DNA of 64,000 bases from positions 18,540 through 82,539 of the IMG/VR virus record IMGVR_UViG_3300010354_000060; one strand, given 5' to 3'. The notes under the pieces were generated by a model that saw only the letters and a program-made list of their open reading frames with translations, ran no database searches and was not told the DNA's origin. Made by a program: the position numbers and the translations under genes. This DNA comes from a virus. Shown one piece after another: positions 33,675 through 61,970 of this stretch (position 1 is its first letter; the number at the start of each line of letters is the position of its first letter).

Positions 33675-34001
33675 TTACCGTTCTATGTAACTTAATGTAT
33701 GATCAGTTGCATAGAGTTGTTGGATGATTATATCACATCCAATTTTAGGATTACAATCACCACATGTGTAGACATCAACTGCTGCCTTGCCTTCCTCAGG
33801 CCATGTATGAATACTAATATGACTCTCAGAAAGCAAGCAAATAACAGTGACTCCCTGTGGTTCAAACTTCTTAGAGATAGTCTGAATCACAGTCGCTCCA
33901 CTTGCTGCTGCTGCGTTTTCCAGTAAGTCTATAAGACAACGCTCGTCGTCCAAAAGAACGAACGAGCATCCATAAAGGTTTAGTAGATAATGCTTGCCCA
34001 T
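33675..34001 (-). CDS. speD: S-adenosylmethionine decarboxylase SpeD-like (108 aa)
   Basis: Begins MGKHYLLNLYGCSFVLLDDE. The self-cleavage site is visible as E59-S60 in LLSESHISIHTWPEEG, where the serine becomes the pyruvoyl cofactor. The downstream AAVDVYTCGDCNP completes the bacterial class 1B pattern. The length is normal for the proenzyme of this short class. The enzyme decarboxylates S-adenosylmethionine for spermidine synthesis; phages may use polyamines to neutralise packaged DNA. Its start overlaps the preceding gene's stop by 1 base. It is a recurring cyanophage auxiliary gene. Confidence 0.92.
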   Translation of the reverse strand: MGKHYLLNLYGCSFVLLDDERCLIDLLENAAAASGATVIQTISKKFEPQGVTVICLLSESHISIHTWPEEGKAAVDVYTCGDCNPKIGCDIIIQQLYATDHTLSYIER

Positions 34002-43012: not shown

Positions 43013-43807
43013 ATGATTGTATTAACAGGTCACGCTGGATTTATTGGACAGAATTTTCTAAAAAAATTAGAAGATAAAGATGTAATTTTGATTGAAAAAG
43101 ATGATGCCTTTAGATTTATTAGAGAGTTTGATGCATGGGATAAGGTAGAACTGATTTTACATCAAGGTGCTATCTCATCAACAACAGAAAAAAATATTCG
43201 CACAATCTATCATAACAATGTTGCATTTACTCTATTCCTTTTAGAACATGCAATGGGATATGAGATTCCAATGAAGTATGCATCGTCTGCTTCAGTTTAT
43301 GGAAATACTCAGGGAGAAATCAATCCACTAAACCAATACGCAATCTCAAAACTTCAGATTGATTACTGCGTGTTAGATAACCTTGATAAGTTTCCTTTGA
43401 TTCAAGGATTCAGATACTTTAATGTCTATGGTAACGGGGAAGATCATAAGGGTGATCAAGCTAGTCCAGTAAGTAAGTTTACAAAACAGATCAAAGAAAC
43501 TGGAGAACTCAATCTCTTTGAGGGATCTGATAAGTTTCTTCGCGACTTTGTTTGTGTTGATGATGTAGTAGATATCGTTCTAAACAACAATGCCCCAAGT
43601 GGAATCTACGATATTGGTACAGGCGAACCTATCTCATTCCAAAAGGTAGCAGAACTGGTTACAAAAAAAGAGAATGGTAAAATTAATACCATTCCCTTTC
43701 CAGATCATTTAGTTGGTAAATATCAGACTTATACTTGTGCAGACATGAGTTGGTTAGGAGAGTATAATTTCAAAACTGTCGAAGACTATCTCCTGGAACA
43801 ACCCTAA
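43013..43807 (+). CDS. NAD-dependent sugar epimerase, HldD-like (264 aa)
   Basis: A short-chain dehydrogenase of the extended type: the Rossmann motif GHAGFIG at residues 6-12, a Ser-rich SSASVYG at about 91-97, catalytic YxxxK as Y109/K113 (QYAISKLQID), and GFRYFNVYG. HQGAISSTTE at residues 50-59 and FEGSDKFLRDFVCVDDVVD are typical of ADP-L-glycero-D-manno-heptose 6-epimerase (HldD/RfaD). It is shorter than E. coli HldD (about 310 residues). It would convert ADP-D,D-heptose to ADP-L,D-heptose, the last step of the pathway started by the neighbouring kinase and adenylyltransferase genes. It is on the plus strand, convergent with and overlapping the cupin gene by 38 bases. Specificity is inferred. 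Confidence 0.8.
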   Translation: MIVLTGHAGFIGQNFLKKLEDKDVILIEKDDAFRFIREFDAWDKVELILHQGAISSTTEKNIRTIYHNNVAFTLFLLEHAMGYEIPMKYASSASVYGNTQGEINPLNQYAISKLQIDYCVLDNLDKFPLIQGFRYFNVYGNGEDHKGDQASPVSKFTKQIKETGELNLFEGSDKFLRDFVCVDDVVDIVLNNNAPSGIYDIGTGEPISFQKVAELVTKKENGKINTIPFPDHLVGKYQTYTCADMSWLGEYNFKTVEDYLLEQP

Positions 43808-44144
43808 TACTATCAGTTTCAAAGTGCTGAGTTGAGAATTCAAACAACTCAGTATCTTCCAAAGCAATCATCTGATGTCTCAATCCTCTCCTAACGTGAA
43901 ATTTGTCACCTTGGGAGAGGATTATTTCGTTGGCATCATCTAAATCATCAATGTCATTATACTTAAGGATAATCTTTCCACTTTGAACATAGAAAGTTTC
44001 ATCTTTAAGGACATGATAATGGAAGGAACACTTACCACCCTTTACAAAATAAAGTAGTTTGCCACAATACTCTGAGTTGTTGACGATCCATTTCTCAAAT
44101 CCCCAACCCTTAGATACAATTTTAATTGAAGAATCCTTTGACAT
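43770..44144 (-). CDS. Cupin domain protein, phosphomannose-isomerase-II-like (124 aa)
   Basis: A single cupin barrel: motif 1 HYHVLKDETFYVQSG supplies two His and one Glu for metal binding, and motif 2 reads GDKFHVRRGLRHQM. The N-terminal KGWGFEKWIVNNSEYCGKLL is typical of small cupins encoded next to sugar-nucleotide genes. It could be an isomerase or epimerase acting on a sugar phosphate, or only bind one. It overlaps the kinase gene by 23 bases, so both are translated together, and it is the last gene of the sugar operon. Confidence 0.8.
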   Translation of the reverse strand: MSKDSSIKIVSKGWGFEKWIVNNSEYCGKLLYFVKGGKCSFHYHVLKDETFYVQSGKIILKYNDIDDLDDANEIILSQGDKFHVRRGLRHQMIALEDTELFEFSTQHFETDSIRVVPGDSLRQF

Positions 44145-44880
44145 CTTCCTCCGTTAACACATAAGTTCCTTGATTTTGAACTGCGATAGCTGCTGCTTTA
44201 TTCGCCAACAGTATTGCTCTTTCAATACTTTCATAACAAAGATATCCATATACTAAAGCAGCAAGGAAGGTATCGCCAGCACCTGCCACATCATATACCT
44301 TTACTTTTTCTGCAGGATATAAAGTATTATTATATAGACACCCCTCTCCACCTTTGGTAACAATCAAATTATCTATGCGGCAATCTTCATTCAATTTAGA
44401 ATATTCTAAGTCATTGATTTTAATATAACAATTTTCTTTGTTTGGTAAGAGTGTTTTCTTACTATCAATAAAGATGGGAACCTCACAATTACTAACAATT
44501 TCAAATAGTTTTTGAGATGTAATATACCCTTTATTGTAATCTGAAATTACAACAGCATCAAAACTATCCGTTGATACTGGTAGAAGAAGAGGTTTTACAA
44601 TGTCCTCAACATCTACACGAAGAAGTTGTTGATTAGATTTCTCATCAATCATCCTCGTTTTGATAATCTTTTCGGGGTTAGTAAGGAATGTAATGTGCAT
44701 ATCAAATGACTGAAGATTGAGACACACATTACCCGCCATACCAGATTTCACTTCAGTTCTTGAGAACTTCATCACAGGAACAGGAGCCTCTGGACTTAGA
44801 CGCTCACACTTCCCATAGATGTACTCATCCTCACAACTATCCCCGATCAATAATACTTTGTATTGTTTTTGTTGAGGCAT
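44122..44880 (-). CDS. PfkB-family sugar kinase, HldE kinase-domain-like (252 aa)
   Basis: Begins MPQQKQYKVLLIGDSCEDEY. KCERLSPEAPVPV near residue 25 is the RfaE/HldE substrate signature. The PfkB signature GAGDTF at residues 200-205 supplies the catalytic Asp203, and VVISDYNKG near 111 fits. Expected reaction: phosphorylation of D-glycero-D-manno-heptose 7-phosphate at C1. It is about 60 residues shorter than the usual kinase domain. The stretch between ITFLTN (63-68) and IIKTRMI (72-78) lacks the roughly 30 residues that normally form part of the lid. It may therefore have altered dimerisation or specificity. It overlaps the adenylyltransferase by 44 bases. Confidence 0.8.
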   Translation of the reverse strand: MPQQKQYKVLLIGDSCEDEYIYGKCERLSPEAPVPVMKFSRTEVKSGMAGNVCLNLQSFDMHITFLTNPEKIIKTRMIDEKSNQQLLRVDVEDIVKPLLLPVSTDSFDAVVISDYNKGYITSQKLFEIVSNCEVPIFIDSKKTLLPNKENCYIKINDLEYSKLNEDCRIDNLIVTKGGEGCLYNNTLYPAEKVKVYDVAGAGDTFLAALVYGYLCYESIERAILLANKAAAIAVQNQGTYVLTEEDVKGFFN

Positions 44881-45238
44881 ATTCTTCTATACGATCAAAA
44901 AATACTAATTCAGTTGCGTAATGAGATCCGATTACTGTTTTACCTTTCCAGTCAGACCCAACAATCATTATATCAGGTTTTACAATTTTGACAAGACTTT
45001 CTAATTGTTCATCACTTGCAAAAGAAAGAACTACATCTACAGGTTTGAGATTCTGTAGATGAAATATTCTCTCTTGTAGATTATAAACAGGTCTTGATGG
45101 TCCTTTCTTTTCTTTGACTCTTTCATCAGTATCAATTGCCACATACAAAAAGTCTCCTAAACTTTTTGCATAGCTTAGGAGATGTATATGACCCGAATGA
45201 AGTAAATCAAAAGTGCCATTTACAAAAACTTTTTTCAT
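44837..45238 (-). CDS. Nucleotidyltransferase, HldE adenylyltransferase-domain-like (133 aa)
   Basis: A HxGH nucleotidyltransferase: GTFDLLHSGHIHLL (H14, H17), then IDTDERVKEKKGPSRPV, the KPDIMIVGSDW core, and a C-terminal STKTIQSII similar to the ISSTxII nucleotide-binding motif. The order and length fit the C-terminal half of HldE (RfaE2), which joins ADP to heptose 1-phosphate. In E. coli the kinase and transferase are one protein with the kinase first; here they are two genes with the transferase transcribed first. A glycerol-3-phosphate cytidylyltransferase-like activity is the main alternative. Its start overlaps the carbamoyltransferase stop by 4 bases. Confidence 0.82.
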   Translation of the reverse strand: MKKVFVNGTFDLLHSGHIHLLSYAKSLGDFLYVAIDTDERVKEKKGPSRPVYNLQERIFHLQNLKPVDVVLSFASDEQLESLVKIVKPDIMIVGSDWKGKTVIGSHYATELVFFDRIEEYASTKTIQSIIDRG

Positions 45239-46920
45239 TCGTTAGGAATATAAGCAAGTTTCTGAATTTCAGGAAGATACATATACTCAATGTCACACCT
45301 CTTCAAGGTATTAACACCATCCTCAACAGTCTCAACCAGTGGATCGCCACCAAGATTAAAACTTGTATTGAAGAGAATAGGAACTTCACTCAATTTTTCA
45401 AAGGCATCAATCAGATTATAGTAGTGTTCATTCTGTTCTGTAGTTACAGTTTGAATACGGCAAGTTCCATCAACGTGAATGACAGAAGGAATTTTTTCTT
45501 CAACTCCAGGATGACACTTAACAGCATACATCATGTGAGGAGTTTCATCACGCCCAGCAAGATCAAACCAATCATGAACCTTATCTTGCTTAATAGAACA
45601 AGCAAAAGGACGGAACCATTCACGATGCTTCACAGCATTCACAATATCCTTACCATCTTTAATGGTGGGATCAAACAGAATAGAACGGTTACCAAGAGCA
45701 CGAGGACCACCTTCAGAACGACCCTGATACACAGTAACAATATTACCATCACGAATCAGTTTAGCAACTTCATCATAAGAAGTATCAGTTACTTCAAGAC
45801 CTTCCAGAGCATCTTCATAGGTAGAAGAATCATACTGAGGACCATAATAAACTGATGCCTGCTTCTTCACTTCCTTCTTAGCAGAAACATCATGCCAAAT
45901 ATAGTTAGCACCACCGATTGAAGTGCCGCCATCATGAGAGATTGGTTCGCAATAGATATTCAGATCAGGGAATGCTTGAAGATACTTGTAGTTAGCGACA
46001 CAGTTCAGACCATATCCACCACAAACAACAATGTTTGTCTCACCAGTTTCTTCATGAGCCTTACGGATCAGTTCAATCATACGATTCTCAGTTGCCTCCT
46101 GAATCGCATATGCCATATCCTTTTGAATATCAGTGTATTGATTTTCCTGATGATTCTTAACATCCTCAAGGAGAAGAGGATAACGACCTACGTTAATCTT
46201 TGCAGCATTAGGATACGTAGGAATAATCAATTCACGATTACTCCAACCATTACTGAAGAACTTAGGAAGATCTTCATTTGGTTTACCATAAGGAGCAAGA
46301 CCCATCAGTTTGCCTGCTTCAATAGCAGGGAAACCACAATACTCAGTTACTGCTTCATACATCTTGGTATGACCAGGATATTCTGTAACAAATACTCCAG
46401 TATCAACTTGATTGCAACCAATTGCTGCTTTTGTGCCAAGGTGTTTATAAACTACTTCAAAGTTCTTAGGATAAGAAGCTCTAAAGATAGTTTCAAATTC
46501 AAACAGAATATCATCAATGCCTTCATATTGAAGGAAACTTCCAGCACCATCAGCAATCACACATGCAGCGGTTTCAAACCCAGAGTTATAAAAACCACAA
46601 GCAGCGTGCATTTCATGGTGAATTAGATCAATGAAATGAACTTTAAAATCAAACTTTTTCTTGGCAAGTTTCCTCACCCAACCATGATATAGATCTTCGC
46701 CAGTCCAATCCAGTTTAGGACCATGGCGGTGAGTATGACAAACTACAAGATGATCAATGTGGTCCACATACTCAAATACTTTTGCCAGACCAAGAAGAGG
46801 TGATCCATCATACTTCATCTTGGAAAGACGTTCTTCCTCAAGATAAAAGATGATCTCACCATCCTTCATTAAAGTCGTACTCCCGTTGTGTCCACGGGCA
46901 ATTGATGCAATAATTGTCAT
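45235..46920 (-). CDS. NodU/CmcH-family carbamoyltransferase (561 aa)
   Basis: The N-terminal Kae1-like domain shows HHEMHAACGFYNSGFETAAC followed by VIADGAGS, and the motif YEAVTEYCGFPAIEAGKLMG. The C-terminal YrdC-like part has EGGPRALGNRSILFDPT, REWFRPFACSI and ILFNTSFNLGGDP. Family members use carbamoyl phosphate to carbamoylate hydroxyl groups of sugars or antibiotics. The length fits the family and all recognised motifs are intact. From memory, related genes occur in several T4-like cyanophages. Here it is placed between the glycosyltransferase and the heptose genes, suggesting O-carbamoylation of the transferred sugar. Confidence 0.9.
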   Translation of the reverse strand: MTIIASIARGHNGSTTLMKDGEIIFYLEEERLSKMKYDGSPLLGLAKVFEYVDHIDHLVVCHTHRHGPKLDWTGEDLYHGWVRKLAKKKFDFKVHFIDLIHHEMHAACGFYNSGFETAACVIADGAGSFLQYEGIDDILFEFETIFRASYPKNFEVVYKHLGTKAAIGCNQVDTGVFVTEYPGHTKMYEAVTEYCGFPAIEAGKLMGLAPYGKPNEDLPKFFSNGWSNRELIIPTYPNAAKINVGRYPLLLEDVKNHQENQYTDIQKDMAYAIQEATENRMIELIRKAHEETGETNIVVCGGYGLNCVANYKYLQAFPDLNIYCEPISHDGGTSIGGANYIWHDVSAKKEVKKQASVYYGPQYDSSTYEDALEGLEVTDTSYDEVAKLIRDGNIVTVYQGRSEGGPRALGNRSILFDPTIKDGKDIVNAVKHREWFRPFACSIKQDKVHDWFDLAGRDETPHMMYAVKCHPGVEEKIPSVIHVDGTCRIQTVTTEQNEHYYNLIDAFEKLSEVPILFNTSFNLGGDPLVETVEDGVNTLKRCDIEYMYLPEIQKLAYIPNE

Positions 46921-46936
46921 ATAAAATTACCTTTAA

Positions 46937-48100
46937 TTATTTTTGAACCGAATCAAGAAATCCTGATACCTTTTTAGTTCCATTATTTGATTTTAATGCC
47001 TCACCCATCAATTCGTCAACTGCACTTTTCTTTTTTGGTGCTGCTGTTGATACATCAGTTGCCCCAGTAAACTGAGGAGATTGTGTCATCTGAGCTGGGG
47101 GCATACCACAACCCTGATTTTGCTGTTCCATTGAAGGAAGAACAATGTTCTCATTCTTCTTTACAAAATACTTATTCATCAATTTATCAACAGACTGAAC
47201 GATAACATCTTCAATCTTATCATTCATTGCCATGATGCCATCATTCACTCTTTGAGTAACCTCATCCATAGTAATACGAATGGGATCATAAATCCTCATC
47301 CCTTCGCCCATGTCAAGAACTTCAAACTTATCATAGTTAGGATAACTAATATTTTCTTTACATGTAGCACCAACCACAACTACAGCAGGAACTTCAAAAG
47401 AGTATGCCATATGCTGACCGACAGAATCGCATCCTAAGAATAGATCCGATTCACTAATGATACCAGCCCATTGGCGAAGATCAATACCACGAGGAGCAGC
47501 AACAGGATCTTTACATCCTTCTTTTTGGAAATCAAGATCAATTTCGCCCATGTAGATTACAGCATACTTACGCTGAAGTTTCTTGATGATATTAATTACA
47601 TTCATCAATTCAAAACTTCTGCCACTGGAATCAGTAACAAAGTTACCAACTACCTGTGTCCCACGACCAAATGGTTGGAATACAACTACTTTATCTTTCT
47701 TTGTTTTTTGTCTTACGTCTTCAAGGACAAACTTACCATGGATCATTTCCTGTCTGGAAAGTTTAATAGTTGGTTTTGAAAGGTCTCTAATACCCTTACC
47801 ATTGATCTGAATATCAAAAGCCTGAGATAGGTTACACTTTTGATTATAATATTCCCAAATACGATATGGTTCTGTCGTAACAATATCCATATCCTTCAGT
47901 TTATCTCTGAAGAGATTCTTATGCCAGTGGTCGTAAACTCTGGGATAAAGTGATGGATGACCTTTGAAGAAGTCTGTTCCGCCCTCGCAGACAATCAGGA
48001 AATCTTCATCAGGATTTTCTTCTTGATATTTTTCAAATGCTGGAATAGAGCAAACTACACGCCCTGCGCCACCATTCACAAAAAATGCTTTTGGTCTCAT
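46937..48100 (-). CDS. GT-B glycosyltransferase, GT9/heptosyltransferase-like (387 aa)
   Basis: The N-terminus MRPKAFFVNGGAGRVVCSIP and the motif LRQWAGIISESDLFLGCDSV followed by GQHMAYSFEVPAVVVVGAT match the two Rossmann halves of ADP-heptose:LPS heptosyltransferases (family GT9). The N-terminal half also has FLIVCEGGTDFFKG. It is first in a five-gene operon with the carbamoyltransferase and heptose genes, so its donor is plausibly ADP-heptose. About 70 residues at the C-terminus (after MNKYFVKKNENIV) are low-complexity Gln/Pro/Thr and Lys-rich, which is unusual for the family. The acceptor could be host LPS or a virion protein. RBS GAGGCGAG is 2 bases from the ATG region. Confidence 0.78.
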   Translation of the reverse strand: MRPKAFFVNGGAGRVVCSIPAFEKYQEENPDEDFLIVCEGGTDFFKGHPSLYPRVYDHWHKNLFRDKLKDMDIVTTEPYRIWEYYNQKCNLSQAFDIQINGKGIRDLSKPTIKLSRQEMIHGKFVLEDVRQKTKKDKVVVFQPFGRGTQVVGNFVTDSSGRSFELMNVINIIKKLQRKYAVIYMGEIDLDFQKEGCKDPVAAPRGIDLRQWAGIISESDLFLGCDSVGQHMAYSFEVPAVVVVGATCKENISYPNYDKFEVLDMGEGMRIYDPIRITMDEVTQRVNDGIMAMNDKIEDVIVQSVDKLMNKYFVKKNENIVLPSMEQQNQGCGMPPAQMTQSPQFTGATDVSTAAPKKKSAVDELMGEALKSNNGTKKVSGFLDSVQK

Positions 48101-48199: not shown

Positions 48200-49072
48200 T
48201 CAGGTAGTGGCAACACCAACCTTGAATTTTTCTGGTGGCTCTGGAGCAATTTTTTCCTCGTCGGTCAATTCTGCTTCAGCAAGTGCTTCCCAATCATAAC
48301 CAGTCTTAACTGGAGCTGGTTCCTCAGCAGTTACAGCAGATTCAAAGGGGACTGTTGGAGGAAGAATTTCAGTTTCGGGAACCAATCCACCTCTTTCTGC
48401 AGTCCATGCATCATCATATCTTGGGTCAGTTGGAAATGGAACCATCCAAGGAGTATCCATATAGTCTGCAAACTTTGTAGGAACATTTTCAAATTCATTA
48501 ACAAAATCAGACCACTTTTTCTTTTGAGTGGAAGTAAATACTGAAGTATCCACTTCACCCATCAAGTTCGAGAGATTGGTAAATGCAGACTCAAATACCT
48601 CTCTAGTAATATGAGGAGTTTTCCAAGGAAATGGTCTCTTCCAATCATTCGCTTCAAAATCCCACTCACAATCTGCAACTTCAATTGTATGATTTGGTAG
48701 GGTAGGATCTGGTCTACTATAAAAAACTTCTCCGCCAGGAGTTAATCTATACTCTTTTTGTGGCTCATCAGATGCTACTCTGGTCTGAACAATTGCCGAA
48801 AGTAAAATCGGATCCTTAGAGAATTCAATTGGGGCATGATATGCATCAAGACCACTCACAATATCCATATTTGCATCATTTTCTTCCTGAGTTAAGGAAT
48901 CATCATGATCTCTATAACTCCAGGAAGGAATTATCTTACCATCTTTATCAACAAATACATAGACTTTTTCGGGACCTTCATATTCCCATTCACCAATTAA
49001 ACCCAAATCAGTTGTCTGTGCCAGATACTCATCTGGCAAAGGATATGTAAATTTCTGTTTGATGTTAGCCAT
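48200..49072 (-). CDS. Acidic hypothetical protein, late-expressed (290 aa)
   Basis: Begins MANIKQKFTYPLPDEYLAQT. It is rich in Trp, Pro and acidic residues, with GEWEYEGPEKVYVFVDKDGK, a central CEWDFEANDWKRPFPWKTPH and a Pro/Glu-rich C-terminus (PVKTGYDWEALAEAEL...). There is no signal peptide or membrane segment. A late octamer lies about 27 bases upstream and a strong terminator follows, making it a single-gene late unit. It could be a virion component or fibre assembly factor for the neighbouring Cys-rich proteins. I do not recognise the family. Confidence 0.7.
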   Translation of the reverse strand: MANIKQKFTYPLPDEYLAQTTDLGLIGEWEYEGPEKVYVFVDKDGKIIPSWSYRDHDDSLTQEENDANMDIVSGLDAYHAPIEFSKDPILLSAIVQTRVASDEPQKEYRLTPGGEVFYSRPDPTLPNHTIEVADCEWDFEANDWKRPFPWKTPHITREVFESAFTNLSNLMGEVDTSVFTSTQKKKWSDFVNEFENVPTKFADYMDTPWMVPFPTDPRYDDAWTAERGGLVPETEILPPTVPFESAVTAEEPAPVKTGYDWEALAEAELTDEEKIAPEPPEKFKVGVATT

Positions 49073-49115: not shown

Positions 49116-50072
49116 TTATACGTATCTAACGGTTACACGTACTGCACCCGCCCATCCTTGAGTTCCACAGCAGCAGCTGCCACCACAAACGTGTGCGGAT
49201 ACACCAGCCAACCCAGGAACATAAGAGTTCTGATCGGACTGAGCAGAAAATCCTAATTCTCCAGCAGCAGAGCACTGGGCAAAGTATCCACAACTTGAGT
49301 TTTCACATACGTCTTGAACCAAGTATCCACCTTGCTGATTAACAAGTCCACCAGAATAAGGAATATAATACTTATTCCAGCATCTTCTTTCGTGGCAAGC
49401 AAGTTGATATGCTCCAGGAAGTCCATATGCACCACCATCAGCACCATAATAAAGGGAGCAGCATCCAACACAAGAAGTATTAAATCCTACAATATCTCTG
49501 TTTCCACCAAAACCTTCGGTTGCGCCAATAGCAGTCTTAAAGTGGCAACGCTGCCAGAATTGGCATTGGCAGAAAGAACATCCCTTAACACCACCTTCAG
49601 CACAGAAGTTGGTAAGTCCAATTCCTGTTACATAAGTCTTACAACCATCAATTCCAGTCGGTCCAGGATTTCTACATGTCATAGAACCAATACAGAAGTT
49701 GTAGACAGTTCCTGAAGTAACTCCAATAACAGTCTTATAGGCATAAGCACCAGCGCCAGCAGGAATACCATAAGCACAGCAGCAAGCGCCAGCTCCACCA
49801 CCACCAGAACCCCAAATCTCAAAAGTAACAACAGTTGTCCCTGTTCCAGGATATGAAGGTACTTTCCAGCAACAGTAACTATAGTTATTGTAACCTGAAG
49901 TATAATCTCCAGCAGGAGCCTGGCAGCAAGTTAGTTCTGTGCTATCACAGGTTCCACACATATGTGCGGAAAACCAAGTTACCTGACCGTCCCTAAGTCT
50001 ACCAATACCACCAGAGTGAATACCTGTAAAATTAGTGTCTGAAGATCCCAATAGAGTTCTTAGGTTTGCCAT
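49116..50072 (-). CDS. Cys-rich, Gly-rich virion-type protein, copy 1 (318 aa)
   Basis: Begins MANLRTLLGSSDTNFTGIHS. It has 29 cysteines by my count (about 9%), many as CC or CCC. Core: FEIWGSGGGGAGACCCAYGI, PAGAGAYAYKTVIG, GCKTYVTGIGLTNFCAEGG, a YYGADGG turn and a C-terminal GWAGAVRVTVRY. The Gly-rich core and end resemble Gly-rich fibre and adhesin tips (compare the 312-residue protein at 61.0-62.0 kb) with many cysteines added. Two paralogues follow upstream. A late octamer precedes it, overlapping the stop of copy 2. A host-receptor adhesin or surface decoration role is inferred. Confidence 0.8.
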   Translation of the reverse strand: MANLRTLLGSSDTNFTGIHSGGIGRLRDGQVTWFSAHMCGTCDSTELTCCQAPAGDYTSGYNNYSYCCWKVPSYPGTGTTVVTFEIWGSGGGGAGACCCAYGIPAGAGAYAYKTVIGVTSGTVYNFCIGSMTCRNPGPTGIDGCKTYVTGIGLTNFCAEGGVKGCSFCQCQFWQRCHFKTAIGATEGFGGNRDIVGFNTSCVGCCSLYYGADGGAYGLPGAYQLACHERRCWNKYYIPYSGGLVNQQGGYLVQDVCENSSCGYFAQCSAAGELGFSAQSDQNSYVPGLAGVSAHVCGGSCCCGTQGWAGAVRVTVRYV

Positions 50073-50096
50073 TTCTTAAATATCCCTGTTAATGAT

Positions 50097-50104
50097 TATT
50101 TATC
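50097..50104 (-). promoter_or_regulatory. T4-type late promoter octamer (GATAAATA)
   Basis: Minus-strand GATAAATA overlapping the stop codon of Cys-rich copy 2 and 25 bases upstream of copy 1. Confidence 0.65.
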
Positions 50105-51059
50105 TGTAAGTGATTCTAATAAGACCAGCATTACCACGCGACCCATTGCAACACCCACCAGCACAAGAAGTTGAAGAAGGAACACCAGCACCTCTCATTC
50201 CACCACTACAATCTGGGTTACCAGGCCATTCTCCCTGCACACATTGTGCTCTTTGGTTGAGACAGGCATTACCAGTGTTTCTAGTAATTACATATCTTGT
50301 TTGAGTGTCTCTGAAACCACCTGGTTGAGGAATACCCAATCTTACGAAACACCAGTTATTGCAGATACAATCTACACGGAACCAACCAGGTTTTCCAGGA
50401 ACACCATAATCAGCACCATAATAGCAAGCACAATCACAACGATAGCAACTACCAGAAATTGGATCAAGCGTATAGCAACCACCAGAATTTTGTGCGCTTT
50501 GTCCGCCACCACCAGGTCCCCAAGTACCAGTTAGGTTTGCACCAAACTGATCAGTATAGATATAGCAACAAGTTCTACCAGGCATTCCACCTTCAGCACA
50601 GAAGTTGGTAAGTCCACATCCAGTAATCCATGTCTTACAACCCTGAAGTCCTACGCAACAAGCAGAGCAGCAAGTAGGAGGAGCAATACAAAGAAGGTAG
50701 CACATGCCACCAAGAGTATCAAGACCTAAATCACATGCACAAAGTGTCTTCATTGCATAAGCACCAGCACCACTAGGAGAACCTTGTTGGCAGCAGCAAG
50801 AACCAGCTCCACCACCACCGCCTCCCCAGATTTCAAACTGGACAGTAGTTACTCCAGGATATACACAATATCCCATGCACCATTGACGATAAGTTGTATC
50901 ACAATTATCCATCCAGCAGTGACCTGAATAGAAGTTTGTGTAACCATCTACAAGGGTGTTACCCCATCCACTGCCCCATTGGGTGGATTGATATCCACAA
51001 GTACGTTTCTGGAGTTCAGTTTGAGTTTCAGTATTTAGAAGTTTTCTTAAATCTGACAT
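50100..51059 (-). CDS. Cys-rich, Gly-rich virion-type protein, copy 2 (319 aa)
   Basis: Begins MSDLRKLLNTETQTELQKRT. It has 35 cysteines by my count (about 11%). The shared core reads FEIWGGGGGGAGSCCCQQGS, PSGAGAYAMKTLCAC, then CCSACCVGLQGCKTWITGCG and LTNFCAEGGMPGRTCC. A YYGADYG turn and the end GNAGLIRITYR are also shared. Between the core and the end the paralogues differ in length and sequence, as expected for a variable receptor-contact region. It has no promoter octamer directly upstream and so is probably co-transcribed with copy 3. Confidence 0.8.
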   Translation of the reverse strand: MSDLRKLLNTETQTELQKRTCGYQSTQWGSGWGNTLVDGYTNFYSGHCWMDNCDTTYRQWCMGYCVYPGVTTVQFEIWGGGGGGAGSCCCQQGSPSGAGAYAMKTLCACDLGLDTLGGMCYLLCIAPPTCCSACCVGLQGCKTWITGCGLTNFCAEGGMPGRTCCYIYTDQFGANLTGTWGPGGGGQSAQNSGGCYTLDPISGSCYRCDCACYYGADYGVPGKPGWFRVDCICNNWCFVRLGIPQPGGFRDTQTRYVITRNTGNACLNQRAQCVQGEWPGNPDCSGGMRGAGVPSSTSCAGGCCNGSRGNAGLIRITYR

Positions 51060-51070
51060 TATTCTTCTCC

Positions 51071-52258
51071 TTAACCGTAAGTAATGATAACTTGACCTGG
51101 GTGACCATACCCACCACAGTAGCAGTTTCCACCAGTTGAAGCGGATGTCAACCCTCCCATTCCAGGAATTCCATGATCCCTATTAGAACCATTATACCCA
51201 AAGAAATTATTAGTTCTATTTGGTTGACCAGTAGGGCCACTTTGGTTCATAGATGTAAGTCTATAAGGAATCCAACCACCATTAGTATTAATCAGTCCAC
51301 CAGGGTATGGTGAATACTGAAGAATCATACAGAAGTCACCCATATCCATGTTACATGGAGTACCAACCCATCCAGGAAGTCCAATAGCGCCACCATCTGC
51401 ACCAAAGTAAGGAGCACACATTGGAACACAGCTCTGGCAGAGTCCGCCATAGCAAGGATTAACCGCATGTCCGTATGAAACTCTCTTTCCACATGATCCA
51501 AATGTGTTTCCAATACCAATCAGGTCATAATAACCAGTAATAACACCATCACATGCATAGATGTTACCTGATCCACAATTATTATTCTTTAATTTCTTAA
51601 ATAGATCAAAGCAATCTCTAACTCCCTGACCCCATGGACCAGGAGCAATATCTGAACAACCCCAATAGCAATACCAACACCAAGCAGCTGTCGTATACTG
51701 ACATGATCCATTGAATCTATATCCTTCGGCACATGAAGGTTCATAGCAACACATGCAAGACTGTGGGAAGCTACAATGGCAGGATGTATATCCAGGTGCT
51801 CCACCCTCTGCACAGAAGTTATCTAAACCATGCCCATTAATAAAAGTCTTACATCCACGATATCCATAACTATCTGGACTGACGCAGGATCCACCACCAA
51901 CACAAAATTCATATTGGCATCCACCTAAGTCATATCCAGTACAAATACACTTATATGCATAAGCACCTGCGCCACCAGGTTGACCAAACATACAGCAGCA
52001 TGTTCCTGCACCACTTCCACCACCACCCCAAATTTCAAACTTAATAAAAGTCGTTCCAGTGGGTGGTTTCCATACGTAACATTCAAAATGCCCCTGTGAA
52101 GTGGATTGATAACAACGGTTACGATACTTAATCTGCTTATAGGCAGATCCTGGAAATCCTGGTGGATTTGCAGTCGCAATGCCTACCGCAGCAAGTGTTT
52201 GGGAAGTTTGAATCCCAGATCGATTAGTACTATCAATTAAATCTCTTAGGTTAGCCAT
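51071..52258 (-). CDS. Cys-rich, Gly-rich virion-type protein, copy 3 (395 aa)
   Basis: Begins MANLRDLIDSTNRSGIQTSQ and is the longest copy, with 34 cysteines by my count. The shared core is FEIWGGGGSGAGTCCCMFGQ, PGGAGAYAYKCICTG, GCKTFINGHGLDNFCAEGG. The middle carries an extra 75-residue segment rich in Cys, Trp and Tyr. It shares the FGADGGAIGLPGW turn and the end GHPGQVIITYG. An ATG with GGAG-type upstream sequence is present (AGGAGTAACC). The common MANLR(D/T)L N-terminus of copies 1 and 3 suggests a shared attachment point on the virion. Confidence 0.8.
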   Translation of the reverse strand: MANLRDLIDSTNRSGIQTSQTLAAVGIATANPPGFPGSAYKQIKYRNRCYQSTSQGHFECYVWKPPTGTTFIKFEIWGGGGSGAGTCCCMFGQPGGAGAYAYKCICTGYDLGGCQYEFCVGGGSCVSPDSYGYRGCKTFINGHGLDNFCAEGGAPGYTSCHCSFPQSCMCCYEPSCAEGYRFNGSCQYTTAAWCWYCYWGCSDIAPGPWGQGVRDCFDLFKKLKNNNCGSGNIYACDGVITGYYDLIGIGNTFGSCGKRVSYGHAVNPCYGGLCQSCVPMCAPYFGADGGAIGLPGWVGTPCNMDMGDFCMILQYSPYPGGLINTNGGWIPYRLTSMNQSGPTGQPNRTNNFFGYNGSNRDHGIPGMGGLTSASTGGNCYCGGYGHPGQVIITYG

Positions 52259-52292: not shown

Positions 52293-52631
52293 TTATGAGT
52301 TGAGGAGAACCCATCCAAAAGTAGATCCGCTGTAAAGAAGTTCTACTGAGTTGTTAGGTACGTTAAGAACAAGATTTTCGTTCAAGTTAGCAATCTTTGT
52401 CGTGGCAGTAGTGACTCCAACGGTTACAGGGTTAGTTCCCCAGGTACCAGCAGGATCAACAATTGAAATTCTGTCTCCAACATTTACATCGCCAACTGAA
52501 GGAATGTTCAGTGTGACTGCACCCGATGTAGTGTTTACAAGATAGGTTTTACCAGCGGAAGCGGTGTAAGGCGTAGAAGATACGTTTACAACTTCTGAGG
52601 TAAAAGTAGAAGCGGAAATAAAGCGTCCCAT
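52293..52631 (-). CDS. Small beta-rich virion protein (112 aa)
   Basis: Begins MGRFISASTFTSEVVNVSST. A beta-rich domain with AGKTYLVNTTSGAVTLNIPS, VGDRISIVDPAGTWGTNPVT and NNSVELLYSGSTFGWVLLNS resembles the last beta domain of many tail fibres (the TLP...GDxIxxxDxxG pattern). The 149-residue protein at 57.0-57.4 kb has a comparable VTLPSLVTVGDYIKLIDSES stretch. It is coupled within the late fibre cluster. It is probably a structural cap or fibre piece. Confidence 0.7.
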   Translation of the reverse strand: MGRFISASTFTSEVVNVSSTPYTASAGKTYLVNTTSGAVTLNIPSVGDVNVGDRISIVDPAGTWGTNPVTVGVTTATTKIANLNENLVLNVPNNSVELLYSGSTFGWVLLNS

Positions 52632-52647
52632 TTTCGTTAATTACTCC

Positions 52648-52965
52648 TTATACTGATTGTTCTACACCGTAAACGTTAACGCTTACGTTTGTTGAGTTTG
52701 AATATGCGATGACTCTTCTACCAGCTTCAATAACCAAACCTGTTCTTTCCAATACGCCGTTTGGTGCGATGAAAGAATCATATTCAATATACTCAGCGGT
52801 TGTAGGCGCTGAAGTAGCAGCAAGTGCTACTCGCACTGCAACATCAGATGCGTTTCTATTTGAAACGTTAACATTAACGTATGCAAGAGTGCTGGAAGGC
52901 ACCGTATATACTGTTGTGTTTGTTGTAGATGCAAGAGATACTTGCCCTAATACTCCAGAAGCCAT
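52648..52965 (-). CDS. Small virion protein, single copy of fibre module (105 aa)
   Basis: Begins MASGVLGQVSLASTTNTTVY. It is one copy of the beta module found twice in the 360-residue protein: VNVNVSNRNASDVAVRVALA, EYIEYDSFIAPNGVLERTGL, VIEAGRRVIAYSNSTNVSVN, ending VYGVEQSV. Such modules may be trimeric fibre or neck components. A perfect TATAAATA late octamer lies about 39 bases upstream, so this gene begins a late unit that includes the 112-residue protein and the Cys-rich genes. Confidence 0.72.
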   Translation of the reverse strand: MASGVLGQVSLASTTNTTVYTVPSSTLAYVNVNVSNRNASDVAVRVALAATSAPTTAEYIEYDSFIAPNGVLERTGLVIEAGRRVIAYSNSTNVSVNVYGVEQSV

Positions 52966-53028: not shown

Positions 53029-56000
53029 TCAAGAGGATGCTAACCAGTATGCGAATGGTCTTGACTTAAGAATTGAAGTATCAACATAAGTCTTGACTGC
53101 TGCCTGTGTGGCAACCTTTTCATTACTATTCTGAGACAGAGTTCCGTCAACAGAGAATTCATTAATTTGAGCACCTAACTGAGCACCAATGGAACCCAGT
53201 CTCAAGGATGTCAGACCTGACAAGTCAAACGCAGAAGCGTTCAGAGTTGCGCTACCAGTTGCCTGGTTAACACGGAAATACTTACCAACACGGAAGTTAC
53301 CATTCTGGTCTGTGGATACGTAATAAACACGACCAGGATAGGTCTCATTAACTTCCCTTGAAGGAATAGGAGCAGAAAGCGGCGTAGAAGGCCAGTTAGT
53401 ATTTGCCTTATTACCAGTACCAAGTTGTAGGAAGTCGTGACCTGTTAAACGAACCTGAGAATATAGGTATCTAACTTTCAAGGTCTGTTCATCAAATGCA
53501 TAATTTGGTTTTTCATCGGCAAGAACAACAATCAAAATACCAGTAGTATCAGGACGAATTGCAGTTATTCTTACAATTTCATTATCAATTCTTACAAAAT
53601 TAGTAGTCGTGAATCCTGAAGTTGAGGTAACTCTCATTTGTGTGGAGATACCTGTAAAGTCCTTCAGTGTTTCAGGAGCCAATGTATTTGGGAATCCAAT
53701 AGCAGTGATTGCAGCACCAGCAGACACACCAGAAGCAGTTGTTCCTTCGGATGCTCTGGTAACATTAATCTGAGTTCCACCAGTGAAGCTATTGATAAGC
53801 ATCAATTCTCCACTTGGAGAAAGAACATAACCACCTTGTTGGAATCCACCAGTAGAAGATACTGGAATTGCAGTATCACCAGCACCAACTGCACCCGAAA
53901 GTGTTGTCGTGTTTGCAGTAAATGGCAGGTTCTTCATAACCTTAATGCCACCAGTATGACCTGCAGCAACTGTAGTTAATTGACCTCTTTGAATGTCAAT
54001 TGAACCTCTTCCATCTGGACCAGTATAAGAAGTTGACTGAATAACATATGAGAAAGGATCTGCACCAGTAATTGTAGTTCCAATACCAGATAAAGTACCA
54101 CCATATCCATTACCTGTAACGAATTCAACACTACCACCTTCATATACCTGAGATGTAGTAAGTCCCGATGTAATCAGAGTAAATCCTTTCTGACCTCTGT
54201 TTGCATCAGTATTATTCGTTAAGTTAGCAGTTGTTCCACTGGTTAAACCACGAATTTCTTCATTTTGAAGGAATCCAGAGCTGATACCAACGTTTGGACC
54301 CTTAGTAACAAGAGTATAATAGATTACAGCAGATGAAGTTTGAACCGAATTAATAATACCAATAGCCCCTGATGTGGCACCACGAACTCTCTCATACTGA
54401 ACGAATCCAGGTGAAGTTAAAGTCTCAACATTATACTTTAAGACAAGTCCTTCAACTTTACCCGTTGCAGGTACTTCTGCCTGGTTATATCCAGAAGAAA
54501 CGATACCATAGTTACCCCAAGAACTGTTACCAGCAAGAGATCTAATTCTACCACCACGAGTTGAAGTATAAGAAATATGGTTATAATAAGTAAAGCAAGA
54601 AACCATTTCTGCCGCACCATTATTCGTTACCCAGAAGGCAACACCATCATCATTGATATTCGTCCAAGAGTCAAAAACAATAGATTTATTAGATTTTACA
54701 GGACCAGCATCATACTGATCATGAGTTTTACCATCAACAATTGCTCCAACTCCACCAGTGGAGATTATGGAACAGTTTGAAACGTATGGCGATTTCGTGA
54801 TTGGAGAAGAAGGATTCAGTCTTACCGCTACACCTTTAACAGTGGCATTATTCATGTCACTGGAAGGTGCCGTAAAGGTAAGAGGAGTTGATCCAACTGT
54901 CTGAGAAATATCAACTTCTACTTGAGTCGTACTAATAAAGTTAACAACCTTACTTCCAGGAGAAACTCCAGACCCAGAAACAGTTGTTCCAACAAGATCA
55001 GGATATAATCCAGTAGAAGTAAGAATTGTTCCTGAAATAGCACCAGTCTGCGTTAGAACTGCACCTGCAGGAACAAACCCAGTCAGTCCCCCCAGTAGAA
55101 CGTCCTTAAGCATCGTAGAACTGCTTAAGTAGAACATTGTGGTCTGAGCGTTAGTGCGAGTTTCAACTGCACTAATTGTTGAACCATTAGGAGCATAAGT
55201 ATCAGCAGTGGTCCATGCACCACCACTAACCTGCATAATTTCAATCTTATTCTGGAAGTAGTTTGCTTCCATGACACGAGCAACCTTAGTTCCTGCACCA
55301 TTAGCAATAGTACTTCCATATGAAATACTGCCACTAAAAGCAGTATCAATTGTCAGAATTTGGGTTTTTGAATTACCTGCTGCTGGTAGGATTTGCGAAG
55401 TTCTGAGGTTATCGCCAACAAGAGTTACATTTTCAGGAAGGATGATTGGTAATTGCTCTTCATAGGTTCCTGCTTTTACATAAATTGTAGCAGGACCAGT
55501 TGTAGCAACACCAACTGCACGGGCAATAGTAGCAAATGAATTGCTAATATTCTTACCATTATTTAAATCACTACCCTCTTCAGAAACATAGAAGACTGGG
55601 TAAGTAGTATTGTTATTCACCCATTGAGGAATACCAGTGGTTGAAACACCAAGAACCTGACCACTTGTTCCAATTGGGAGAGCAGCAGCGCCAGCACCGC
55701 TCTTATAGATCATATCGCCAGTGGCAGAAAGAACGTTCGTTGCCGAACCTTCTGTCAGTGGGTTCCAATATGTTCCAAGGGAATCTAATTCAGGTGCATG
55801 ATTAAAGTTTGTTGAAGCAACGCTAACATAACTATTACTATTTCTTGAAACAGTATCGCCAAGTTCATAGGTTGTGAGTGAACTCCAAGCACTCTTCCAC
55901 TCAAAACCTTTAACAATCAGATCCCAAGCAGTTCCATATCCTACTGCAACAGGACTGGTTGTTTGTGCAGCACCTGCAACAGGAATATTTTGCTTGGCAA

Positions 56001-56571
56001 CGTATGAATATCCACCAAATCTTACAACGTCACCAGGAATATATGAACGAGTTGTGCTCCATGCACCAACAAACGTAAATCCTGTTGTTAAAGTATCCCA
56101 ATCAGATGCATTTGAACTGGGAGCACTGTTAGTATTGGTAGTTTTTGAGATGTAGTTGTATCCACCATATGAAACAACGTCACCAACTTGATAGCTGGTT
56201 CCAGAATTCCACGCTGATTCAAAGTTAAAACCACCAAAGTAAGGAGTCATATTGGTGGCACTGAAGCTTCCACCAGATGTGAATCCTGTAGTTACTCTAT
56301 ATTGAGTATTACCATACTTAAGAATATCATTAATTTTATAGAAAGTAGCAGAAGTCCAATCTCCTACGTTTCTAATACCTTCTACGTGCAGAGACCATTT
56401 GGAAAGATCTGTTCCATACCAACTTGACTCTGATGATACTGAGGTATGATTTGTGGTACAAACATAAGTATTCGCACCAAATTTAACTATATCATCAATA
56501 ACATAAGCAGTGGTACCTGCCCAGTTACCTCTCCAGTTAAATTTTAATCTGCCTAGTCTAAAATCAGCCAT
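53029..56571 (-). CDS. Large tail-fibre protein with carbohydrate-binding-like repeats and beta-helix (1180 aa)
   Basis: Residues about 10-275 hold five repeats of a chitinase-type carbohydrate-binding pattern, W..(T/S)Y..GD.V..G...Y (for example WNSGTSYQVGDVVSYGGYNY and WSTTRSYIPGDVVRFGGYSY). From about residue 320 a pectate-lyase/DUF1565-like beta-helix begins (YVSEEGSDLNNGKNISNSFA, YVKAGTYEEQLPIILPENVT). The C-terminal part has loops such as GLTSLRLGSIGAQLGAQINE and the fibre ending NEKVATQAAVKTYVDTSILK. This is the architecture of a receptor- or polysaccharide-contacting fibre. No depolymerase residues could be assigned. Confidence 0.82.
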   Translation of the reverse strand: MADFRLGRLKFNWRGNWAGTTAYVIDDIVKFGANTYVCTTNHTSVSSESSWYGTDLSKWSLHVEGIRNVGDWTSATFYKINDILKYGNTQYRVTTGFTSGGSFSATNMTPYFGGFNFESAWNSGTSYQVGDVVSYGGYNYISKTTNTNSAPSSNASDWDTLTTGFTFVGAWSTTRSYIPGDVVRFGGYSYVAKQNIPVAGAAQTTSPVAVGYGTAWDLIVKGFEWKSAWSSLTTYELGDTVSRNSNSYVSVASTNFNHAPELDSLGTYWNPLTEGSATNVLSATGDMIYKSGAGAAALPIGTSGQVLGVSTTGIPQWVNNNTTYPVFYVSEEGSDLNNGKNISNSFATIARAVGVATTGPATIYVKAGTYEEQLPIILPENVTLVGDNLRTSQILPAAGNSKTQILTIDTAFSGSISYGSTIANGAGTKVARVMEANYFQNKIEIMQVSGGAWTTADTYAPNGSTISAVETRTNAQTTMFYLSSSTMLKDVLLGGLTGFVPAGAVLTQTGAISGTILTSTGLYPDLVGTTVSGSGVSPGSKVVNFISTTQVEVDISQTVGSTPLTFTAPSSDMNNATVKGVAVRLNPSSPITKSPYVSNCSIISTGGVGAIVDGKTHDQYDAGPVKSNKSIVFDSWTNINDDGVAFWVTNNGAAEMVSCFTYYNHISYTSTRGGRIRSLAGNSSWGNYGIVSSGYNQAEVPATGKVEGLVLKYNVETLTSPGFVQYERVRGATSGAIGIINSVQTSSAVIYYTLVTKGPNVGISSGFLQNEEIRGLTSGTTANLTNNTDANRGQKGFTLITSGLTTSQVYEGGSVEFVTGNGYGGTLSGIGTTITGADPFSYVIQSTSYTGPDGRGSIDIQRGQLTTVAAGHTGGIKVMKNLPFTANTTTLSGAVGAGDTAIPVSSTGGFQQGGYVLSPSGELMLINSFTGGTQINVTRASEGTTASGVSAGAAITAIGFPNTLAPETLKDFTGISTQMRVTSTSGFTTTNFVRIDNEIVRITAIRPDTTGILIVVLADEKPNYAFDEQTLKVRYLYSQVRLTGHDFLQLGTGNKANTNWPSTPLSAPIPSREVNETYPGRVYYVSTDQNGNFRVGKYFRVNQATGSATLNASAFDLSGLTSLRLGSIGAQLGAQINEFSVDGTLSQNSNEKVATQAAVKTYVDTSILKSRPFAYWLASS

Positions 56572-61031: not shown

Positions 61032-61970
61032 TTATTGTAGATATCTGACAATGACTATTCCCGAACCACCAGTAGACCCGCTGGCATTGGGGGACCTTGA
61101 TCCGCCGCCACCGCCTCCAGTGTTTACAGTTCCAGCAACAGGTCCTGGCGATCCTTTTCCACCACCACCAGCACCACCAGCGCCAGGAGCTGAAGGGTTT
61201 GCTCCACCGCCTCCGCCGCCAGCAAAATATCTTCCTGGTGCTGGTCCAGGAGTTCCATAAGATACGGGAATTCCAGTATCTCCTTGAAATGCTGGCAAAC
61301 CAACACCACCTGCACCACCAGATCCACTAATATTTCCAACTCCCCCAGCTCCGCCAGCACCACCACCGCCGCCGCCAGATGCTTGCGCTGTAGTTGGTGC
61401 AGGACTACCTGCACCACCAGAATTTCCTTGTCCTGAAGTTCCAGCACCAGCACCCCCGAGAGGAGATCCTCCTCCACCACCAGATCCACCAGAAACTCCA
61501 GAACCATTAGGCACACCGCCATATCCACCACCTGTTGCAGTTAAGGTGGTGAATGTGGGGGGTCCAGAGATAGTTGTCGGAGTTCCATTAGAAATTCCAG
61601 TATTGCCTGATCCAGAACCACCAGCTCCCCCACCACCAACAGTAATCGTGTAAGTTCCTGCATTAAAACGCACATTGGTGTTAGATAAGTATCCTCCTGC
61701 TCCTCCACCTCCTGCAGCACCAGTACCAGATCCACCACCACCGCCGCCCCCAGCGACAACAATATAATCAAGAGTTCCACCATTCCCTACACGTAAAGTT
61801 CCTGGTGCGGTAAAAATATGATAACGATATCCATTACCTGGTGTAAAAATAGTTCCTCCATCTGCAGAAACTCTTGTGATATTCTGGGAGTGTTGTGTCT
61901 TACCCTTTCCACTCAAAAGATAATCACTAAGAGCAGTTCTTAATCCAAACTTAGCAGATCTAAAAGGCAT
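61032..61970 (-). CDS. Gly-rich tail-fibre adhesin-like protein (312 aa)
   Basis: After an N-terminal 60 residues (MPFRSAKFGLRTALSDYLLS, ITRVSADGGTIFTPGNGYRY) the sequence YIVVAGGGGGGGSG starts a long polyglycine region with repeated GGGGxGG stretches, ending SGIVIVRYLQ. This is the layout of Gly-rich adhesins such as T-even gp38, where loops between polyglycine helices contact the receptor. The ends (GIVIVRY) and early core match the Cys-rich family at 49-52 kb but without cysteines. It is probably a receptor-binding fibre tip. It ends 15 bases before the repeat gene. Confidence 0.78.
   Translation of the reverse strand: MPFRSAKFGLRTALSDYLLSGKGKTQHSQNITRVSADGGTIFTPGNGYRYHIFTAPGTLRVGNGGTLDYIVVAGGGGGGGSGTGAAGGGGAGGYLSNTNVRFNAGTYTITVGGGGAGGSGSGNTGISNGTPTTISGPPTFTTLTATGGGYGGVPNGSGVSGGSGGGGGSPLGGAGAGTSGQGNSGGAGSPAPTTAQASGGGGGGAGGAGGVGNISGSGGAGGVGLPAFQGDTGIPVSYGTPGPAPGRYFAGGGGGGANPSAPGAGGAGGGGKGSPGPVAGTVNTGGGGGGSRSPNASGSTGGSGIVIVRYLQ

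Follow-up and report, generated by a model that had tools for sequence, protein, structure and literature searches.

Probable fibre-tip proteins of marine cyanophages are cysteine-rich and linked to a glycosyltransferase: are the cysteines sugar acceptors?

Why would a phage encode, side by side, three proteins in which roughly every tenth residue is a cysteine? The question is raised by a stretch of 64,000 nucleotides (hereafter the window) from the 82.5-kb virus record IMGVR_UViG_3300010354_000060 in IMG/VR (positions 18,540 to 82,539), which comes closest, among annotated relatives, to T4-like cyanophages, above all S-CAM1 and S-CAM3. Computation shows the genes themselves, their paralogy, a fold match, family assignments and a linkage to a glycosyltransferase (GT) gene, and this last property suggests a reason for the cysteines other than disulfides or metal. 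The explanation that we put forward, in which fibre tips of the Pam3 gp24 type would be folded by a chaperone and decorated by the GT and a NodU-type carbamoyltransferase through S-linked heptosylation of cysteine, is tentative when taken as a whole. The genes that raise the question, and a cysteine-free protein that serves as an internal comparison, are the following.

51071..52258, minus strand: cysteine-rich, glycine-rich probable fibre-tip paralogue A (P0003), 395 residues, 34 Cys; Gly_rich_2; phrog_4205 (4e-52)
50100..51059, minus strand: cysteine-rich probable fibre-tip paralogue B (P0002), 319 residues, 35 Cys; modelled, Pam3-fibre fold; phrog_4205 (3e-58)
49116..50072, minus strand: cysteine-rich probable fibre-tip paralogue C (P0001), 318 residues, 29 Cys; phrog_4205 (6e-63)
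61032..61970, minus strand: glycine-rich tail protein P0004, zero Cys; same Pfam domain (Gly_rich_2), above cut-off

A sequence-only reading of this DNA had described tandem paralogues of 318, 319 and 395 residues with 29, 35 and 34 cysteines, counts that are exact for the open reading frames (ORFs), and BLASTP confirms the paralogy (best E values 8e-32 for C and B, 3e-24 for C and A, 5e-20 for B and A). Cysteine accounts for 9.1% of C, 11.0% of B and 8.6% of A, against 0.55% (84 in 15,332 residues) in 29 other minus-strand coding sequences of the window, hand-chosen among the minus-strand ORFs with the small ones of 28.3-36.6 kb excluded; on this background, 29, 35 and 34 cysteines have Poisson probabilities of 2e-25, 5e-33 and 1e-28. 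The motifs FEIWGxGGxGAGxCCC, GCKTxxxGxGLxNFCAEGG and (Y/F)GAD are present as described, the C-terminal one being looser than claimed (VTVRYV, IRITYR, VIITYG). The proposed likeness to the glycine-rich protein at 61.0-62.0 kb finds partial support: A, like P0004, passes Gly_rich_2 (32.1 bits for A, cut-off 24.3), and B and C have no Pfam match. The span that had been singled out covers the three genes and omits the linked downstream genes at 43.0-49.1 kb, including the GT.

What kind of proteins are these? The AlphaFold model of paralogue B (mean predicted local distance difference test score, pLDDT, 77.8; predicted template-modelling score 0.77; poor at the start and at residues 21-34 and 174-195) matches the tail fibre of the myocyanophage Pam3 (7ypx_A) with Z 16.4 and a root-mean-square deviation of 2.9 over 189 aligned residues, and a second Pam3 fibre structure with Z 15.9 (PDB 7YPX, 7YFW), unrelated entries scoring below 4. 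Further matches are the Bxb1 tail tip (Z 13.0) and the glycine-rich domain of ALK/LTK (8.3-10.1), and a PDB sequence search with the fibre family gave no match. In the part of the Pam3 report used here, the distal tumour necrosis factor (TNF)-like and glycine-rich fibre domains are described as host-recognising, and the chaperone gp25, encoded after the fibre gene gp24, as needed for the fibre (PMC9608196). Pam3 differs in having a single fibre gene and a homotrimer, with no mention of cysteine in that part of the text (PMC9608196), whereas the loci described here usually have three cysteine-rich paralogues, at 8-12% Cys, beside a linked GT. Because of the match between paralogue B and the Pam3 fibre, the three proteins are very probably fibre tips, which would place them in the virion. 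The tail adhesin or receptor-binding role suggested earlier thus gains support from this match, from adjoining tail-fibre genes and from a chaperone-type partner gene, which lies with the other linked genes as follows.

53029..56571, minus strand: long tail fibre (phrog_9851), upstream of the array; CBM_5_12 repeats
48200..49072, minus strand: likely fibre chaperone (phrog_9740; Tfa-like by family), the partner gene; Phage_tail_APC found in 5/12 family members, not this one
46937..48100, minus strand: glycosyltransferase of GT9/heptosyltransferase fold; modelled fold, weak sequence matches
45235..46920, minus strand: NodU-type carbamoyltransferase; Pfam Carbam_trans_N and _C above cut-off, NCBIfam NodU 6e-42, below cut-off

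The chaperone assignment is carried by the family, five of whose 12 members match the Phage_tail_APC model (best 1.8e-12), the protein of the window not being among them; a PDB sequence search with the chaperone gave a single weak match (2kz6, E 0.003). For the NodU-type protein, the two Pfam domains score 193.8 and 79.6 bits against cut-offs of 27 and 24.

How old is the triplet? All three proteins match the phrog_4205 profile significantly and over their full length, a family to which PHROGs gives no function. A profile built from 11 members, with the best 80 of 291 relatives kept, led to 78 distinct IMG/VR loci, to which five contigs from metagenome-assembled genomes (MAGs) were added, and 254 ORFs in 87 loci match the rebuilt profile, the distinct family members among the matches listed having 5.0-12.6% Cys. 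Exactly three family genes is the commonest form (67/87 loci); 12 loci have two and three have one, in part on truncated contigs. Many three-gene loci are near-copies, leaving 54 distinct triplets. In a tree of 105 rows, which remained of the 254 ORFs after narrowing to 210 distinct rows longer than 200 residues and then to 143, the label for array position changes 17 times against 55.9 in shuffles, so that the genes of cyanophage-type loci cluster mostly by position. Four loci (L052, L053, L058, L066) have six-gene arrays ordered X-Y-Z-X'-Y'-Z', of which L053 and L058 have one Y gene that was missed by the profile and recovered as a cysteine-rich ORF best matching other Y genes. By this tree, the triplet in cyanophage-type loci is an old maintained set of three mostly position-specific lineages, and a recent triplication is rejected there; the copies in L083, L084 and L086 are intermixed, hence such lineages are not universal. 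The earlier idea that the triplication fits receptor-binding diversification, if this is taken to be recent, is not supported in view of these old lineages, the 67 three-gene loci and the six-gene arrays. The five contigs L082-L086, which are assigned to bacterial or archaeal MAGs and carry the phage cassette, look like misbinned viral contigs.

The X-Y-Z-X'-Y'-Z' arrays raise the possibility that the three paralogues form an obligate heterotrimer. Weighing against this are the two-fibre loci L062 and L065, in which a partner gene follows each fibre, and the position of the partner gene between the two fibres in P-SSM2 and between A and B in L074-type loci. The dipeptide LR within the first ten residues of 165 of the 195 proteins in triplets would fit a common docking end.

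A further property of these arrays is their linkage to the GT. The GT model (mean pLDDT 87) is closest to 3tov of family GT9 (Z 23.9), followed by WaaF (20.9), TibC (20.2) and WaaC (19.0), with other GT-B enzymes at about 12; three chloroplast NDH-PSI subunits score 18-19. Sequence matches are weaker: Glyco_transf_9 is matched by 9/10 GT members and 3/3 distant GTs (best 1e-4 and 1e-5), the members shown score 11.2 and 16.8 bits, below the 22-bit cut-off, and a PDB sequence search with the GT gave chance-looking matches only. Partner, GT and NodU genes lie downstream of the array in 70/70 loci with more than 3.5 kb of flank there; L074-type loci have the GT on the opposite strand, with genes intervening, and still within about 5 kb. 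A reciprocal search from the GT, with the best 80 kept, gave 76 new loci with cysteine-rich family genes in 67, NodU in 74 and the partner in 70, although the counts of 70/70 and 67/76 are not independent because many contigs occur in both sets. The nine GT loci without family members (L105, L116, L126, L129, L137, L138, L142, L156, L159) lie on contigs that are short or stop close to the GT, and the expected place has probably been cut off. Among relatives of the long fibre, 22 of 25 records come from phages holding the GT (for AG-345-E02, the GT is on another contig from that cell); the other three (Mosig, S-BM3, AG-345-D19) are without it and have, in the stretch fetched, no ORF of at least 150 residues above 4% Cys. 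Pelagibacter phage Mosig was also considered as a case of a GT with no cysteine-rich neighbour, and was dropped since the 1.5e-4 match covers 37 columns in an annotated methylase and reads as chance. We consider it likely that the GT acts on these fibres.

Does the association hold outside the family? In two single-cell marine viruses, the GT adjoins cysteine-rich proteins outside the reach of the family profile, one of 9.2% Cys in AG-345-P14 (L170) and two of 9.6% and 10.7% in AG-345-O18 (L171). One L171 protein (4018-6294; 758 residues, 73 Cys) begins with a stretch similar, by eye, to the small tail protein at 52648-52965 of the window, and is possibly a fusion of a fibre adaptor with a cysteine-rich tip. 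More distant GTs (26-28% identity) are found among tail or unnamed late genes in Vibrio podophages and in Aeromonas phage HJ05, and a wider search of viral contigs with three distant GTs gave one locus. The Vibrio tail proteins adjoining the GT have 2.3-4.4% Cys, against 0.15-1.2% for homologues in five Vibrio phages with no GT match in the stretch fetched (five hand-picked from 60 listed of 511 records, and aligned without composition correction). When SBP1 is aligned with phage 1244, ten cysteines are paired in the alignment with P, D, K, W, K, K, K, S, V and I, and aligned cysteines on the side lacking the GT number zero in most Vibrio alignments, one with D63, and two and six with 1.224.A. 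The HJ05 protein beside the GT has 4.1% Cys and a weak Gly_rich_2 match. A search with the cysteine-free 61-kb protein gave five loci whose glycine-rich ORFs have 0-1.3% Cys; one of them, the contig L184, comes from a cassette phage, and the other four are without a GT in the stretch fetched.

If the GT is a heptosyltransferase, where would its donor come from? The window carries a sugar cluster in which the two HldE domains and HldD each have a relative.

44837..45238, minus strand: HldE domain II-like nucleotidyltransferase; NCBIfam rfaE_dom_II 4e-32, below cut-off
44122..44880, minus strand: HldE domain I-like heptose kinase; NCBIfam rfaE_dom_I 2e-45, below cut-off
43770..44144, minus strand: cupin protein of the sugar cluster; Pfam Cupin_2 above cut-off
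43013..43807, plus strand: HldD-like ADP-heptose epimerase; Pfam Epimerase, NCBIfam heptose_epim 5e-65, below cut-off

These assignments point to ADP-heptose as the putative donor. Among the 41 GT loci with both flanks, HldE/HldD-like genes within about 9 kb are all present in 17 and all absent in 24, and NodU is present in all 41; where they are absent, the hosts may make ADP-heptose, or the genes may be elsewhere. Hosts of the Vibrio and Aeromonas kind make ADP-heptose for their own lipopolysaccharide (LPS), which fits the lack of all these sugar genes in the Vibrio and Aeromonas stretches fetched. In Synechococcus WH8102 and CC9311, by contrast, the LPS is described as containing neither heptose nor 3-deoxy-D-manno-octulosonic acid in the section of the study relied on here (PMC4515613), so that a cyanophage needing heptose would have to bring the pathway.

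We would therefore picture the cassette, provisionally, as follows. In this T4-like cyanophage, the chain of a fibre tip, with TNF-like and glycine-rich domains, would fold with the help of the chaperone encoded by the next gene. Its thiols, free in the reducing cytoplasm, would be the acceptors to many of which the GT attaches heptose, and NodU would carbamoylate this heptose before or after transfer. The tip would then leave the cell with many S-linked sugars that could shape or protect receptor binding. That cysteine is the acceptor at all we regard as about evenly balanced. The broader proposition that several phage groups multiply S-glycosylate their fibre tips, with heptose added by a GT9-fold enzyme to dozens of cysteines per chain, perhaps carbamoylated in marine phages, and with three chains in one heteromeric tip in the group of the window, is doubtful for now.

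What else could the cysteines be doing? They could be structural, with disulfides within or between chains stapling the tips after lysis in oxic seawater while the GT has its targets on other residues or in another place, an explanation that we consider unlikely but serious. Exposed glycine-rich tips could gain from staples, and in close pairs of proteins no residue is better conserved than cysteine (1.7% changed, against 3.1 for W and 3.2 for G), with several positions near-invariant. Full pairing, however, predicts even counts and paired changes. Odd numbers of cysteines are found in 76 of 162 proteins (86 even) and in 30 of the 54 triplet sums (24 even), and among 58 close pairs, greedily chosen, 13 differ at one cysteine site and seven at two, the difference being odd in 19 of the 27 changed pairs. 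The sequence-only reading, which had thought of disulfides formed after lysis, is mostly contradicted as regards full pairing, and retains some ground in that conservation suggests that part of the cysteines may be structural. Stapling also leaves unexplained why the GT is found beside cysteine-rich proteins of other families and not beside their cysteine-poor homologues, a difficulty shared by the improbable scenario in which the GT, like TibC, attaches its sugar to Ser, Thr or some other residue of the fibres and the cysteines have a different purpose. In its favour, TibC, which has the same fold (Z 20.2), modifies adhesin serines according to the part of the report drawn on here (PMC4358343), and serine makes up 12% or more (11/61) of the residues newly exchanged with cysteine in close pairs. 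Across the family, where cysteine is replaced, Q, H, R, K, Y, E and D are over-represented and G, A, W, V, I and L under-represented among the substitutes, a pattern that suggests exposed positions. The histidines among them, and runs of CC/CCC well above expectation (1242 CC pairs versus 583 after shuffling, about twofold), could speak for metal-binding or redox-active cysteines, such as tail-tip clusters of iron, zinc or copper, but the family alignments contain no fixed metal-binding spacing and the GT link would remain unexplained, making this a very remote prospect. Finally, the sugar genes could modify the host surface (e.g. LPS, against superinfection), as phages commonly do, their place beside the fibres being inherited in related phages; most loci do come from related marine phages sharing gene order. 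We find this rather implausible, considering that the GT of L074-type loci stays within about 5 kb despite lying on the other strand beyond intervening genes, that the Vibrio and Aeromonas GTs sit between tail genes in stretches with no sugar genes, and that marine Synechococcus LPS, in the same portion of the study as above, is without heptose (PMC4515613).

S-linked heptosylation has its own difficulties. The conservation of cysteine in close pairs and the near-invariance of several positions exceed what would be expected of surface-sugar sites, no sequon and no strong context surround the family cysteines (N at -2, 1.8-fold), and sugars on CC/CCC runs would be crowded. The overlap of the array-based and GT-based counts weakens the linkage, the excess of cysteine in Vibrio is moderate and comes from few, related phages, and 24 of the 41 fully flanked GT loci have no heptose genes nearby. 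A cysteine-free glycine-rich protein is also encoded nearby, at 61 kb, which implies that the GT need not act on every fibre and that the fold does not need cysteine.

How would such a system compare with known ones? The nearest working analogue is TibC/AAH (bacterial autotransporter heptosyltransferases, BAHT), in which, as far as the cited part of the report goes, an enzyme of GT9-type fold is co-encoded with an adhesin that receives many sugars, the differences being a serine acceptor, where we propose cysteine, and a four-cysteine iron finger (PMC4358343). This finger is not conserved in the GT (only Cys 38 and 224 are more than 90% conserved, Cys 17 and 89 about 80%), and while the GT may work like TibC, we do not claim it as a BAHT member. 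Glycocins such as sublancin carry sugar on cysteine sulphur, as proposed here; as generally described, they differ in size, being short secreted peptides that carry one or two sugars, and in their transferase, which belongs to another family. To our knowledge, S-linked glycosylation has not been described for any viral adhesion protein, and a search of open-access literature, by titles and the starts of abstracts, returned nothing on cysteine-rich cyanophage fibres or S-glycosylated phage tails. Members of phrog_4205 and phrog_9740 occur in the same gene order in S-CAM1, S-CAM3, S-SSM7, Sf-FS3 and partly P-SSM2, yet the PHROG entries give no function, fold or linkage, and phage genome records give the fibre genes no function.

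The proposal offers a testable role for cyanophage genes listed as hypothetical or as unclear sugar genes (phrog_4205, phrog_9740, GT, NodU and HldE/HldD-like). If it is true, (i) host recognition by these ocean phages would depend on a sugar made and attached by the phage, on a residue not known as a virion acceptor, (ii) work to map receptors or engineer fibres would be misled if it left the modification out of account, and (iii) the heptose and carbamoyltransferase genes of cyanophages would gain a use. It also provides a signature to look for in other genomes, that is, a heptosyltransferase-fold gene adjoining a cysteine-rich tail gene.

Several minor features of the locus and its relatives complete the picture. 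The cyanophage counterpart of the cupin gene is annotated 'cysteine dioxygenase'; here the match is to generic cupins only, and the label is therefore no evidence for cysteine chemistry. The cassettes of S-SSM7 (L090, 14369-17977) and Sf-FS3 (L091, 11391-16771) have extra 2-oxoglutarate/iron (prolyl-hydroxylase-like) genes and a second NodU-like gene, that of S-SSM7 also encoding a tryptophan halogenase, and these are perhaps further modification enzymes. The long tail fibre has five carbohydrate-binding CBM_5_12 stretches near its start. Just upstream of the array, a small stand-alone protein of 112 residues (52293-52631) matches the T4 gp9/gp10 N-terminal domain (Pfam, 1.6e-8). Distant from the cassette, a minus-strand ORF of 108 residues (33675-34001) has 6 Cys (5.6%).

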